In this document: positions 43,872 to 51,928 of the stretch, one piece after another
Numbering within the stretch: position 1 is the stretch's first letter
Layout of the letters: each line of letters begins with the position of its first letter
From: Myxococcales bacterium
GTDB taxonomy: Bacteria > Myxococcota_A > Polyangia > Haliangiales > Haliangiaceae
Length of the DNA: 64,000 bases
Assembly: GCA_016794525.1 (NCBI GenBank)
Contig: JAEUJY010000052.1
Location: 1-64,000 of the forward strand
Direction: 5' to 3'
The notes under the pieces: generated by a model
Database searches by the model: none
What the model was told of the DNA's origin: nothing
The model's input: only the letters and a program-made list of their open reading frames with translations
Program-made: the position numbers and the translations under genes

Positions 43872-44431
43872 GCCAGCTCCAGATCCGCCGGCAGGTCGAC
43901 GTCGCGGGCCACGCCGGGGTCGTCGACCGCGACCGCCGCGAGCTGACCGCGCAGCACGCCGCGGGCGCCGTCGGGGTGCGTCGTCGCGGTCGCCAGCGCC
44001 GCGATCAGCGCGCGCGCGACCAGCGGCGGGTGGCCGCCGCGGCCCTGGTACACCGGCACGCCGCCGCCGCGGGCGATCAGCGCGCGCAAGGTCGCCGCGG
44101 TCACCCACGGGTGATCGACCGGCCACAGGAACGCGGCGTCGATCGCCGGCGGCAGCGCCGCGAACCCGAGCGCGACCGAGCTGGCCATGCCGCGGGCGGG
44201 GTCGGGGTTGACGACGACGGTCGCGCCGCGGGCGGCGGCCGCCGCGGCCACCTCGGCGGCGAACGGCGGCCCGACGACGACGATCGCGTCGGCCGGCGCG
44301 ACGCCGACGGCGCCGGCGGTGGTCAGCACGCGATCGAGGAAGCGCGCGTCGCCGATCGGCAAGAGCGCCTTGGCCACGCCGCCGAGCCGCGCGCCCGCCC
44401 CCGCCGCCAGCACCACCGCGCCCAGCCTCAC
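43859..44431 (-). CDS. MobA/MocA-like nucleotidyltransferase
   Basis: Protein of 190 residues from GTG 44431. The glycosyltransferase-A-like NTP transferase signature VVLAAGAGARLGGVAKALLP is followed by VVVNPDPARGMASSVALGF and LWPVDHPWVT with the metal-binding Asp. This matches MocA/MobA enzymes that attach CMP or GMP to molybdopterin. It is coupled (GTGA) to the xdhC-like gene, a common pairing for maturation of xanthine or CO dehydrogenase-type molybdoenzymes. No catalytic subunit is in the window. Confidence 0.87.
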   Translation of the reverse strand: MRLGAVVLAAGAGARLGGVAKALLPIGDARFLDRVLTTAGAVGVAPADAIVVVGPPFAAEVAAAAAARGATVVVNPDPARGMASSVALGFAALPPAIDAAFLWPVDHPWVTAATLRALIARGGGVPVYQGRGGHPPLVARALIAALATATTHPDGARGVLRGQLAAVAVDDPGVARDVDLPADLELACGA

Positions 44432-45390
44432 GGCCGCGGCTCCCAGCCCGGCGCCGCCGCCCGGCCGCGCCGCCGCCACACCACCAGCTCGGCGGCGATC
44501 GCCACCGCGATCTCGGCCGGCGTCTCGGAGCCGAGGTCGAGGCCGATCGGCGCGTGCACCGCGCGCCAGGCCTCGGGCGCGATGCCGCGCATCGCCAGCC
44601 GCTTCTGGAAGCGCCCGACCTTGCCGCGCGAGCCGATCATGCCGAGGTACGCCAGCGGCCGCGGCATCAGCTCGAGCATGAGCTGCTCGTCGACGGCGTG
44701 ATCGCGGGTGACGACGAAGGCGTGGTCGTCGGCGCCCAGCCCGCCCAGCGCGCGCTCGACGTCGGCCGCCGCGAACGAGTCGACGGTGCGCGCGGCGCCG
44801 GCGATCGGCGCGGCCAGCGCGCCGGTGTCGTCGTCGTCGCAGACGATCACCTCGAAGCCCAGCCCGGCCAGGAGCGGCGTCAGCGCCCGGCCGACGTGGC
44901 CGGCGCCGAAGACGATCGCCCGCGGCACGCCGCCGATCCGCTCGCGCAGCACCTCGTCGACCACCCGCGGCCCGGCGCCGTCGGCGGGATCGACCGCGGC
45001 CAGCCCCAGCCGACCGTCGGCGAGCGCGGTCGTCAGCGTCACCGGCGCGCGCTCGGCGATCGCCGCGACCACCGCGGCCAGCACGTCGCGATCGGGCGCG
45101 GCCGGCGCGACGACGACGTCCATCCAGCCGCCGCAGCACATCGCCAGGTCGCGCACGAGGTGGTGGCGGACCCGGGTCGCCGGCGCGCCGGCCGCCACCG
45201 CCTGCCCGGCCTGCATCACCGCCAGCTCGATGCGCCCGCCGCCGATCGTGTCGCGGGCGGTGCCGTCAGCGAACACCGCCATGCGCGCGCCGACGTGGCG
45301 CGGCGTCGAGCCGCCGGCGGCCACCACCGTGGCCAGCGCCACCGGCCGTCCGGCGTCGAGCGCGCGCAGCACCTCGGCAAACAGCGACAC
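44428..45390 (-). CDS. XdhC-family molybdoenzyme maturation protein
   Basis: Protein of 320 residues. The N-terminal XdhC domain has ATVVAAGGSTPRHVGARMAV, TIGGGRIELAVM and the CCGG motif in DLAMCCGGWMDVVV. The C-terminal Rossmann domain has IVFGAGHVGRALTPLL, VTRDHAVDEQLM and the signature GMIGSRGKVGRFQKRL and PIGLDLGSETPAEIA. XdhC binds and sulfurates the molybdenum cofactor before insertion. Start of a three-gene minus-strand unit with the MocA-like gene and a lipoprotein. Confidence 0.93.
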   Translation of the reverse strand: MSLFAEVLRALDAGRPVALATVVAAGGSTPRHVGARMAVFADGTARDTIGGGRIELAVMQAGQAVAAGAPATRVRHHLVRDLAMCCGGWMDVVVAPAAPDRDVLAAVVAAIAERAPVTLTTALADGRLGLAAVDPADGAGPRVVDEVLRERIGGVPRAIVFGAGHVGRALTPLLAGLGFEVIVCDDDDTGALAAPIAGAARTVDSFAAADVERALGGLGADDHAFVVTRDHAVDEQLMLELMPRPLAYLGMIGSRGKVGRFQKRLAMRGIAPEAWRAVHAPIGLDLGSETPAEIAVAIAAELVVWRRRGRAAAPGWEPRP

Positions 45391-45459: not shown

Positions 45460-46605
45460 ATGACCGACGAGGTTCGCGTCGTCGCGACCAACAACGTCGA
45501 GGTCTTCCGCCACCTGACCCAGCCGCCGCTGGCCCGGGCCGGGGTGACCTGGCAGATCGCCGCCGACCACGACGCGCTGCTGGCCGCGGTGCGCGCCGCG
45601 CCGCCGGCGATCGTGATCATCGACGCCGAGCTGGCCGGCGGCGACGGCTACGCCGCGTGCCGCGCGATCAAGGACGATCCGGGCCTGGCGGCGGTGCGGG
45701 TGGCGATGGTGGTCGCCCCCGGCGGCCTCGATCGCGCCGCGACGCTGGCGCTGGCGGCGTCGGGCTGCGACGAGGTGCTGGCGCCGCCGGTGTCGTTCGA
45801 CGACTTCTGCACCCACCTGTCGCGGATGTCGCCGGTGCCGGTGCGCCGCGACCGCCGCATCGCCACCAACCTCGCGGTGGAGCTGGTCGACGTCGGCGCG
45901 CCGGCCCACGTCACCAACGTCGGCGCCGGCGGCATCGGCCTGCGGCTGACCGCGCCGCTGCCGGTGGGCACCGTCGTCAGCCTGCGCCTGCGGGCCGGGG
46001 TCGACGACGGCCCGCTGCCGAGCGCGCGCGTGATGTGGTGCCGGCCGGTGCCGGGCGAGCCCGCCAGCCACGCCGCCGGCCTGGCCTGGGAGGGCGAGCC
46101 GCCGCTACGCACCCGGCTGCTCTTCGAGCAGGTGGCGCTGTTCGAGCTCGAGCTGGGCGACGACGGCACCGCGCTGGTGCGGATGCACGGCGACTTCACC
46201 GAGATGACGCGGTTCGACGCGCTGGCGACGCAGCTGGTCGGCGCCGGGACGATCTCGTTCGACCTCGCCGCCGTGCGCTACATCAGCTCGGCCGGCGTGC
46301 GCGCGTGGTGCGAGCTCCTGGGCAAGGTCGCCGGCGCGCGGCTGTCGTTCCGCCACTGCTCGACCCCGTTCATCAGCCAGGCCGCGATGGTGCCGCTGGT
46401 GCTGGCCGGCGGCACCGTCCGCTCGTTCGCCGCGCCGTATTACTGCGAGGCGTGCGGCTTCGACGACGAGCGGCTGCTCGAGGTCGGCGCGATCGCCAAG
46501 GACGGCGACCGGCTGGTCGCGCCGCAGCTGGCGTGCGCGCGCTGCGGCGCCCCCAGCGACCTCGACGACCTGCCCGACCGCTACTTCGCGTTCCTGGCGA
46601 TGTAG
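45460..46605 (+). CDS. REC-PilZ-STAS-zinc-ribbon fusion signalling protein
   Basis: Protein of 381 residues joining four modules. A receiver domain (1-120) has Asp55 in IIDAELAGGDGYAACRA and late PPVSFDDF. A PilZ domain (about 127-225) starts RRDRRIATN with VTNVGAGGIGLRL; the c-di-GMP motif normally (D/N)xSxxG reads NVGAGG here, so binding may be altered. A STAS-like domain (about 235-330) has ISFDLAAVRYISSAGVRAW with the Ser-Ser switch motif. A C-terminal zinc ribbon has CEACGF and CARCGA. Probably a cytoplasmic regulator integrating phosphorylation, second messenger and partner-switch inputs. Monocistronic. Confidence 0.85.
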   Translation: MTDEVRVVATNNVEVFRHLTQPPLARAGVTWQIAADHDALLAAVRAAPPAIVIIDAELAGGDGYAACRAIKDDPGLAAVRVAMVVAPGGLDRAATLALAASGCDEVLAPPVSFDDFCTHLSRMSPVPVRRDRRIATNLAVELVDVGAPAHVTNVGAGGIGLRLTAPLPVGTVVSLRLRAGVDDGPLPSARVMWCRPVPGEPASHAAGLAWEGEPPLRTRLLFEQVALFELELGDDGTALVRMHGDFTEMTRFDALATQLVGAGTISFDLAAVRYISSAGVRAWCELLGKVAGARLSFRHCSTPFISQAAMVPLVLAGGTVRSFAAPYYCEACGFDDERLLEVGAIAKDGDRLVAPQLACARCGAPSDLDDLPDRYFAFLAM

Positions 46606-46687: not shown

Positions 46688-47467
46688 CTAGCCTTTGGCG
46701 ACCTTGAGCACGTGCTCGACCACCTCGCGCAGGCCGGCGCCCTCGGCCGCCTCGCTGAGGTAGGCCGGCTTGAACGACAGCTCGTCCCACCAGGCCCGCA
46801 CGTTGGCCACGCCGATCGACTTGGGGAAGCCGCCGAACATCGGCGCGTCGTTGAGGGCGTCGCCGACGAAGGCGTAGCCGTCGAGGTCGTTGCCGTCGCC
46901 CTTGAGCACCTGGCGGATGACCGTGACGCACGCCGACAGCTTGTCGAAGTGCGGCGGCCCGAAGTTGACGTGGACGCTCGAGCGCGAGGCGGTGAAGCCG
47001 GCCTTGCGGATCATCGCGACGACGTTGTCGGCGTCGGCGGGCGACAGCGACGCCTCCTCGTTCCAGTCGATCGCCAGGTCGACCTCGCGGTACTTGGAGT
47101 CGGTCGACAGCCGCGCGCCCGGCACCTTGGCGGCGACCTCGGCGTACAGCTCGAGCATGCGGCGCCGCCACTCGGGCAGCGAGTTGGCCGGCACGCCGTA
47201 CAGGCGGCTCAGCCGCTTGCCCTCGCGCACCCACGTGACGCCGCCGTTCTCGGTGACCACCGCCGCGACCCCGGCCACGCTCATGAACGCCTGGCCCCAG
47301 CCGGCGGGCCGGCCGGTCACCAGGACCACCGGGACCCCGGCGTCGCCCAGCCGCTCGAGCGCGGTGTAGGTGGAGGCCTCGATCCGGCCCGCGGTGGTGA
47401 GCGTCCCGTCGATGTCGGAGAACAGCGCGCGGATCGGACCGCGCAGGTCGGCTAGGGGCAGCGCCAT
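46688..47467 (-). CDS. HAD-superfamily phosphatase (Cof/subclass IIB-like)
   Basis: Protein of 259 residues. Motif I ALFSDIDGTLTTAG with nucleophile Asp, motif II VLVTGRPAGWG, a cap region rich in charged residues, and motif III/IV FVGDALNDAPMF. The pattern fits sucrose-phosphate-phosphatase/Cof-type sugar or mannosyl-3-phosphoglycerate phosphatases; substrate unknown. It is transcribed towards the convergent REC-PilZ gene across an 82-base gap in which I see no clear structure. Confidence 0.88.
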   Translation of the reverse strand: MALPLADLRGPIRALFSDIDGTLTTAGRIEASTYTALERLGDAGVPVVLVTGRPAGWGQAFMSVAGVAAVVTENGGVTWVREGKRLSRLYGVPANSLPEWRRRMLELYAEVAAKVPGARLSTDSKYREVDLAIDWNEEASLSPADADNVVAMIRKAGFTASRSSVHVNFGPPHFDKLSACVTVIRQVLKGDGNDLDGYAFVGDALNDAPMFGGFPKSIGVANVRAWWDELSFKPAYLSEAAEGAGLREVVEHVLKVAKG

Positions 47468-47779: not shown

Positions 47780-47878
47780 CGGTTCCTCGTTGGGATGACG
47801 CACTGGTCGCCGGATCTTCCCGGCTTCCTTCCGTGCTCTGCCAGGTAGAGCGCCGACCCCCGCCGGTGTGACGCCGAA

Positions 47879-47910
47879 ATCGTACGATCTCGGAGTGGCG
47901 CCGTGGCGCC
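47879..47910. promoter_or_regulatory. Palindromes in the region between HTH and S55 genes
   Basis: ATCGTACGAT (47879-47888) is a perfect 10-base palindrome, and its flank extends it to TACGATCTCGGAG (47883-47895). The reverse complement CTCCGAGATCGTA occurs at 52044-52056 upstream of the response regulator gene. GGCGCC-GT-GGCGCC follows at 47897-47910, 30 bases before the ATG at 47940. Candidate operator(s). Confidence 0.4.
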
Positions 47911-47939
47911 CCCCCAGGCGGGCGGCTATCGTTGTGCAG

Positions 47940-51928
<3,989 letters not shown>

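Follow-up and report, generated by a model that had tools for sequence, protein, structure and literature searches.

P0001 gene and its domains

The window, the whole stretch of 64,000 nucleotides that was analysed, carries on its plus strand an open reading frame with its start codon (ATG) at 45460 and its stop at 46605. The encoded protein, P0001, has 381 amino acids and combines a pseudo-receiver, a PilZ domain, a STAS domain and a zinc ribbon, in that order. The features are as follows.

45460..46605, plus strand: whole P0001 gene
45472..45831, plus strand: receiver-like domain (residues 5-124), a pseudo-receiver
45490..45495, plus strand: N11-N12, replacing the acidic pair of active receivers
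45622..45624, plus strand: Asp55, the conserved phospho-acceptor position
45844..46137, plus strand: PilZ domain (residues 129-226)
45844..45858, plus strand: PilZ motif 1, RRDRR (RxxxR, residues 129-133)
45916..45933, plus strand: PilZ motif 2, NVGAGG (residues 153-158), altered from [D/N]xSxxG
46141..46437, plus strand: STAS domain (residues 228-326)
46288..46290, plus strand: Ser277, the predicted switch serine
46438..46602, plus strand: zinc-ribbon-like C-terminal tail, C329-x2-C332 ... C359-x2-C362, then LDDLPDRYFAFL
44428..45390, minus strand: XdhC/CoxI family gene, divergent (Pfam XdhC_C, E 6.6e-37); context only, outside the system
46688..47467, minus strand: HAD hydrolase gene, convergent; context, with synteny kept in 8 loci

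The GC content at codon positions 1, 2 and 3 of the gene was 0.76, 0.52 and 0.99, and two close orthologs (L023 and L024) differed by a dN of 0.049 and a dS of 0.40, indicating that the gene is real and under purifying selection. The N-termini of the orthologs agreed with ATG 45460 as the start. For the neighbouring genomic stretches, gene calls came from a codon-bias script, which gives approximate starts and at times joins upstream frames in high-GC DNA (635 aa for the P0001 gene in L001).

Taken alone, P0001 matched Pfam Response_reg (E 2e-5, residues 15-118) and STAS_2 (E 4e-4, residues 249-308), both under the curated cut-off; NCBIfam gave the PilZ-like TIGR02266 (E 1.5e-4, residues 140-215), also under its cut-off, and Pfam PilZ did not match the single sequence. 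A search of genome contigs with the P0001 sequence alone returned no matches; the same search with an alignment recovered relatives. Among 26 aligned members (P0001 and 25 relatives), Response_reg matched 24 (best E 3.7e-12), Pfam PilZ 21 (best E 3.6e-18), STAS_2 14 and STAS 7, so that the predicted domains, including the PilZ and STAS domains of the original prediction, are firm at the family level. The AlphaFold2 model built from the family alignment had a mean pLDDT of 90.8, with no stretch of three or more residues below 50. A fold search with the full model gave receivers only among the matches listed.

We collected 45 distinct full-length proteins that matched the whole profile, from Myxococcota, and family-level profiles recovered the proposed four-module order across this set. 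The proteins were divided into group A (P0001 and nine others, n = 10), group B (a paralog of P0001 in the host genome, at L002, and its orthologs, n = 21) and other branches (n = 14). The close relatives of the host have been deposited as Kofleriaceae, Myxococcales or Deltaproteobacteria metagenome-assembled genomes.

Receiver-like and PilZ domains

The P0001 model superimposed on PleD (VIA-align) with a Z score of 15.5 and an rmsd of 2.2 Å over 125 aligned residues, which identifies a receiver fold. Of the residues that an active receiver carries, Asp55 is the sole survivor in P0001; the acidic pair, the Thr and the Lys are gone. In groups A and B together, the Asp was kept in 30 of 31 proteins, the acidic pair was Asn-Asn or similar, the Lys was lost throughout and the Thr was lost in all but one. 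Because these residues are missing across both groups, we regard the domain as a pseudo-receiver. The phosphorelay input that had been proposed for P0001 was therefore rejected as unlikely on the basis of the active-site residues.

The PilZ domain was also supported by the strands in the model. Motif 1 (RxxxR) was present in 10/10 group A and 9/21 group B proteins. Motif 2 was altered as the original prediction had described, with Gly in place of the Ser of the canonical motif; this replacement was shared by 8/10 group A proteins, and the canonical form was found in 2/10 group A, 21/21 group B and 14/14 other proteins. Outside groups A and B, both motifs were intact in 13 of 14 proteins. The L026 protein is an example of a relative that carries both. 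These patterns suggest that the common ancestor of the fusion family probably had a c-di-GMP-type PilZ site, of which groups A and B appear each to have eroded a different half. With motif 1 intact and motif 2 altered in 8 of the 10 orthologs, c-di-GMP binding by P0001 is uncertain.

STAS domain and C-terminal tail

A profile of the STAS-ribbon module matched the anti-sigma antagonist TM1442 in the PDB (1sbo, E 1.5e-4) and SpoIIAA (1th8 chain B) only at E 0.55. In the TM1442 alignment, Ser277 corresponds to the Ser that follows Asp in the D-S-A-G loop. The Ser-Ser motif reported earlier is present as S276-S277, and S277 occupies the switch position; S276, by contrast, replaces the usual Asp. 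A loss of the switch Ser in the S-S-A-G loop of P0001 was considered and ruled out by the same alignment. The switch Ser was kept in 43 of the 45 full-length proteins and in all 31 proteins of groups A and B, in which the residue right after it varied. The preceding Asp was replaced by Ser in group A and by Asn in group B.

The four Cys residues of the predicted C4 ribbon (329, 332, 359 and 362) were invariant in the 45 full-length proteins, as was Cys300 (45/45). Matches of the STAS-zinc profile to zinc fingers in the PDB were taken as generic Cys-pair matches.

Chromosomal neighbourhood of the fusion genes

The group A genes have a conserved chromosomal setting. On one side lie genes for the HAD hydrolase, for a small protein of helix-turn-helix-like type, for an S55 peptidase and for another protein that is secreted, and on the other lie XdhC and MobA-like genes; neighbours without a Pfam result were labelled by eye. 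At nine loci, the SpoIVB-like S55 peptidase gene (47868-49811 in the window) is kept close to the group A gene. No HATPase, PP2C phosphatase or histidine kinase gene was adjacent to P0001. Because its conserved neighbours have no evident connection with the switching system described below, the P0001 gene is an orphan member.

In 19/20 loci, the gene ahead of the group B gene encodes a long protein that has Cys pairs in its N-terminal part, a middle part resembling a coiled coil and a C-terminus that is hydrophobic (by eye); Pfam gave no match for it. Just downstream of the group B paralog in the host (L049:290-8060, G000 C34) are contractile-tail genes (sheath, T4 gp19-like tube and AAA ATPase) and a DUF5995 gene. 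The contractile-tail genes were absent beside the ortholog of this paralog in G002, and their placement was thus treated as incidental. In L049, a Sigma70_r4_2 protein is encoded about 6 kb from the group B gene, too distant to count. At another locus (L102:3048-4702), a gene for a PilZ-STAS-ribbon protein is followed directly, on the same strand, by a standalone STAS-zinc gene, the only case seen in which the fusion type was directly linked to a standalone module.

STAS-zinc and HATPase families

The C-terminal 150 residues of P0001, which we call the STAS-zinc module, recur in many relatives, often in several copies. The module occurs alone (about 160 aa), with a hydrophobic C-terminal segment (about 240-320 aa), as two tandem copies plus a hydrophobic segment (743 aa), and fused to a pseudo-receiver and PilZ. 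The 743-aa protein, encoded in the host (L054:7416-9647, G000 C72), contains the STAS-zinc module twice, together with a hydrophobic segment and a C-terminus that looks PDZ-like (by eye); its second module has lost the switch Ser. Among 43 STAS-zinc modules at partner loci, the switch Ser was kept in 42, the residue before it was Asn in 38, and the fourth ribbon Cys was missing from four.

Beside several STAS-zinc genes lies a second family, in which a degenerate receiver is followed by a HATPase domain. The sequence profile of this family gave no matches in the PDB, but its structural model (mean pLDDT 87.9) did: residues 140-302 aligned with SpoIIAB (1th8) with a Z score of 11.2 and an rmsd of 2.5 Å over 130 residues. 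The N-box Glu and Asn and the glycine-box residues of the ATP site were invariant in 34/34 proteins. The host genome encodes six HATPases of this family. One family member in the host is fused to PEGA repeats (715 aa; L144:3593-5740, G000 C159).

Both families were then counted in a sample of 240 genomes from the host's class and in a phylum-wide sample of 377 genomes that partly overlaps it. The STAS-zinc module was present in 67/240 and 53/377 genomes and the HATPase family in 65/240 and 48/377, respectively. In the class sample, 64 genomes had both, three had STAS-zinc only (G016, G051 and G052), one had the HATPase only (G112) and 172 had neither; in the phylum sample, the corresponding numbers were 48, five, zero and 324. 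Fisher's test gave p values of about 1e-53 (class) and 1e-55 (phylum), uncorrected for kinship, which inflates the significance. The co-occurrence reflects shared ancestry in part. However, in three families of the class (f7, f14 and f24), most members of which lack both, the pair has been gained or lost jointly, a pattern that favours several independent events. Outside the class, many genomes carry a single STAS-zinc gene and a single HATPase gene. Furthermore, in at least 22 genomes, at least 33 HATPase genes are followed directly, on the same strand, by a STAS-zinc gene, with a gap of less than 180 nt between the matches.

On the evidence of sequence and gene order, STAS-zinc forms a separate family that recurs and is paired with a HATPase family dedicated to it. 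The fusion protein of the original prediction is thus real, but the unit to which its C-terminal module belongs is larger than had been supposed. No dedicated Pfam or NCBIfam model matched the STAS-zinc family, its HATPase pairing or the domain order of P0001, and the open-access literature searched contained nothing relevant on that order, which had been put forward as not being a described family, on the STAS-zinc family or on the pairing with a pseudo-receiver-HATPase. The STAS-zinc and pseudo-receiver-HATPase system is apparently undescribed; each of its parts belongs to a known kind.

Types of partner locus

Three types of locus containing both families were distinguished. The two genes are often adjacent, with a SpoIIE phosphatase gene frequently close by, and SpoIIE domains were detected in such loci with E values of 4.8e-40, 1.6e-36 and 1.4e-40. 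Type 1 loci encode a long TPR protein, a STAS-zinc protein with a hydrophobic C-terminus, a PAS protein, a HAMP-SpoIIE phosphatase, a TPR protein, a phosphonate-binding-like protein and the HATPase (L134, L138, L139 and L140, with the related L063 and L065 on one contig); in the host, this type is divided between contigs C69 and C140. A HAMP-SpoIIE phosphatase gene was located at L050:13672-15354.

Type 2 loci encode the HATPase, STAS-zinc, a PAS-GGDEF diguanylate cyclase and a kinase-AAA-GAF-SpoIIE protein (L135, L141 and L142). L136 ends at a contig edge, and the SpoIIE gene of L137 is on the opposite strand. The PAS-GGDEF gene followed the HATPase and STAS-zinc genes in five loci from three families. 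The operon at L135:2274-9818 and its equivalents in L141 and L142 lie outside the host's class; their kinase-AAA-GAF-SpoIIE protein has about 1670 aa, and the L135-type operon adjoins an AMP-binding-like gene (by eye).

Type 3 loci were found in the host's order, where the HATPase and STAS-zinc genes are divergent from a REC-GGDEF-EAL gene in 11/12 genomes. In the host, a gene for a PilT-like T2SSE ATPase stands behind the REC-GGDEF-EAL gene (L052:3735-9435, G000 C128), which hints at a motility-related output. GGDEF matches number only 17 in the 9.8-Mb host genome, so that chance is an unlikely explanation for finding GGDEF genes next to HATPase and STAS-zinc genes in two separate arrangements. 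No Sigma70_r2 gene was adjacent to the HATPase/STAS-zinc loci of the host genome, where action at a distance is possible.

Proposed role of P0001

As described above, STAS-zinc and HATPase genes co-occur and adjoin each other, the modelled HATPase fold resembles SpoIIAB and its ATP site is invariant, SpoIIE genes lie in the loci and the switch Ser is kept; these findings point to partner switching. The PAS-GGDEF genes in five loci and the divergent REC-GGDEF-EAL gene in nearly all genomes of the host's order, in a host with few GGDEF domains, suggest a link with c-di-GMP. The neighbourhoods of the STAS-zinc relatives therefore back the connection with both kinds of signalling that had been suggested from P0001 alone, and we lean towards reading P0001 as an orphan, sensor-fused component of a partner-switching system of Myxococcota that is linked to c-di-GMP. 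Counting against its membership are the orphan position of the gene, the replacement of the Asp before the switch Ser, the lack of an adjacent Sigma70_r2 gene and the altered PilZ motif 2.

The binding of P0001 to a HATPase, its phosphorylation on Ser277, its gating by PilZ and its output are inferred as follows. The STAS-zinc module would be the equivalent of the antagonist RsbV/SpoIIAA, and the pseudo-receiver-HATPase, encoded elsewhere than P0001, that of RsbW/SpoIIAB, both kinase and holder of the target. Unphosphorylated P0001 would bind the HATPase and thereby detach it from its target; once the HATPase had phosphorylated Ser277, P0001 would be released, and a SpoIIE-type phosphatase would reset the serine. 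PilZ, with or without c-di-GMP, may gate access to Ser277 or position P0001 in the cell. The pseudo-receiver, likely a protein-binding module on both the fusion and the HATPase, could do the same by offering a binding surface. c-di-GMP would be the recurring input, reaching types 2 and 3 through the enzymes encoded next door and the P0001 fusion through PilZ. The stronger version, a Myxococcota-wide partner switch into which c-di-GMP feeds directly through a PilZ domain fused to the STAS switch protein, is a real but tentative possibility; if true, a single protein would read c-di-GMP and set a Ser-kinase/phosphatase switch.

Alternatively, P0001 may be a scaffold or localisation protein, in which the pseudo-receiver and PilZ dock, STAS-zinc assembles and the Ser stays unphosphorylated. 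The loss of receiver catalysis, the erosion of one half of the PilZ motifs in group A and of the other in group B, the lack of linkage between the P0001 and HATPase genes, and the Cys-pair, coiled-coil-like, hydrophobic protein encoded ahead of nearly all group B genes would all suit such a role. We nevertheless consider it unlikely, because a Ser that is invariant in groups A and B beside a variable next residue is more in keeping with a phosphosite than with a passive surface. A zinc or redox sensor, with the four-Cys ribbon and Cys300 as input and STAS as output, would agree with the invariance of these five residues in the full-length proteins, but the ribbon is found in every STAS-zinc module whatever the other domains, and so looks structural, and its fourth Cys is dispensed with in some partner-locus modules; we regard this reading as quite improbable. 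That P0001 is a genuine response regulator, in which a histidine kinase phosphorylates Asp55 and thereby controls PilZ and STAS, is highly improbable, since the receiver fold and the kept Asp position are outweighed by the lost acidic pair, Lys and (nearly always) Thr and by the lack of an adjacent kinase gene.

Partner switching and c-di-GMP are two of the principal routes by which bacteria choose a lifestyle, and direct links between them are few. Many Myxococcota hold the dedicated STAS-zinc/HATPase pair, which recurs beside c-di-GMP enzymes and, in the host's order, beside a PilT-like motor ATPase. The analysis provides named genes and residues with which this link can be probed. It would also give a function to many STAS-like genes of Myxococcota whose annotation is poor.

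Comparison with known systems

Sensory STAS fusions are known in partner switching, in the stressosome and in light-sensor proteins. In RsbR-type stressosome proteins, an N-terminal sensory part feeds the STAS domain. P0001 likewise has a sensor-like part before STAS, but this consists of a pseudo-receiver and PilZ, and a zinc ribbon is present. P0001 shares its PilZ domain, set behind a receiver-like domain, with PilZ proteins including those of TIGR02266, and differs from them in the STAS domain and zinc ribbon that follow.

RmdB of Streptomyces is a c-di-GMP phosphodiesterase that acts as an anti-sigma antagonist (PMC13232838). It resembles the system described here in coupling c-di-GMP signalling with anti-sigma factor antagonism, but does so with GGDEF-EAL domains and has neither STAS nor PilZ. 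LvrC of Leptospira, a receiver-HATPase, is described as a receiver-regulated anti-sigma factor (PMC13269768; PDB 9qih) and has the same domain order as the partner HATPase. It was the best whole-chain match of the HATPase model (Z 13.4 over 261 residues, at an rmsd of 20 Å, as the domains match but their arrangement differs). The receiver of LvrC is canonical, whereas the Myxococcota family has a degenerate receiver and is encoded by genes paired with those for STAS-zinc.

In composition, the Myxococcota system parallels the RsbV/SpoIIAA, RsbW/SpoIIAB and RsbU/SpoIIE systems: it too has a STAS domain with a switch Ser, a HATPase whose fold is that of SpoIIAB and whose ATP motifs are intact, and a SpoIIE phosphatase encoded nearby. 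Unlike these systems, it has no linked sigma factor, its STAS domain has the Asp before the Ser replaced and carries a C-terminal four-Cys ribbon, its HATPase has an N-terminal degenerate receiver, and in one form the module is fused to a pseudo-receiver and PilZ.
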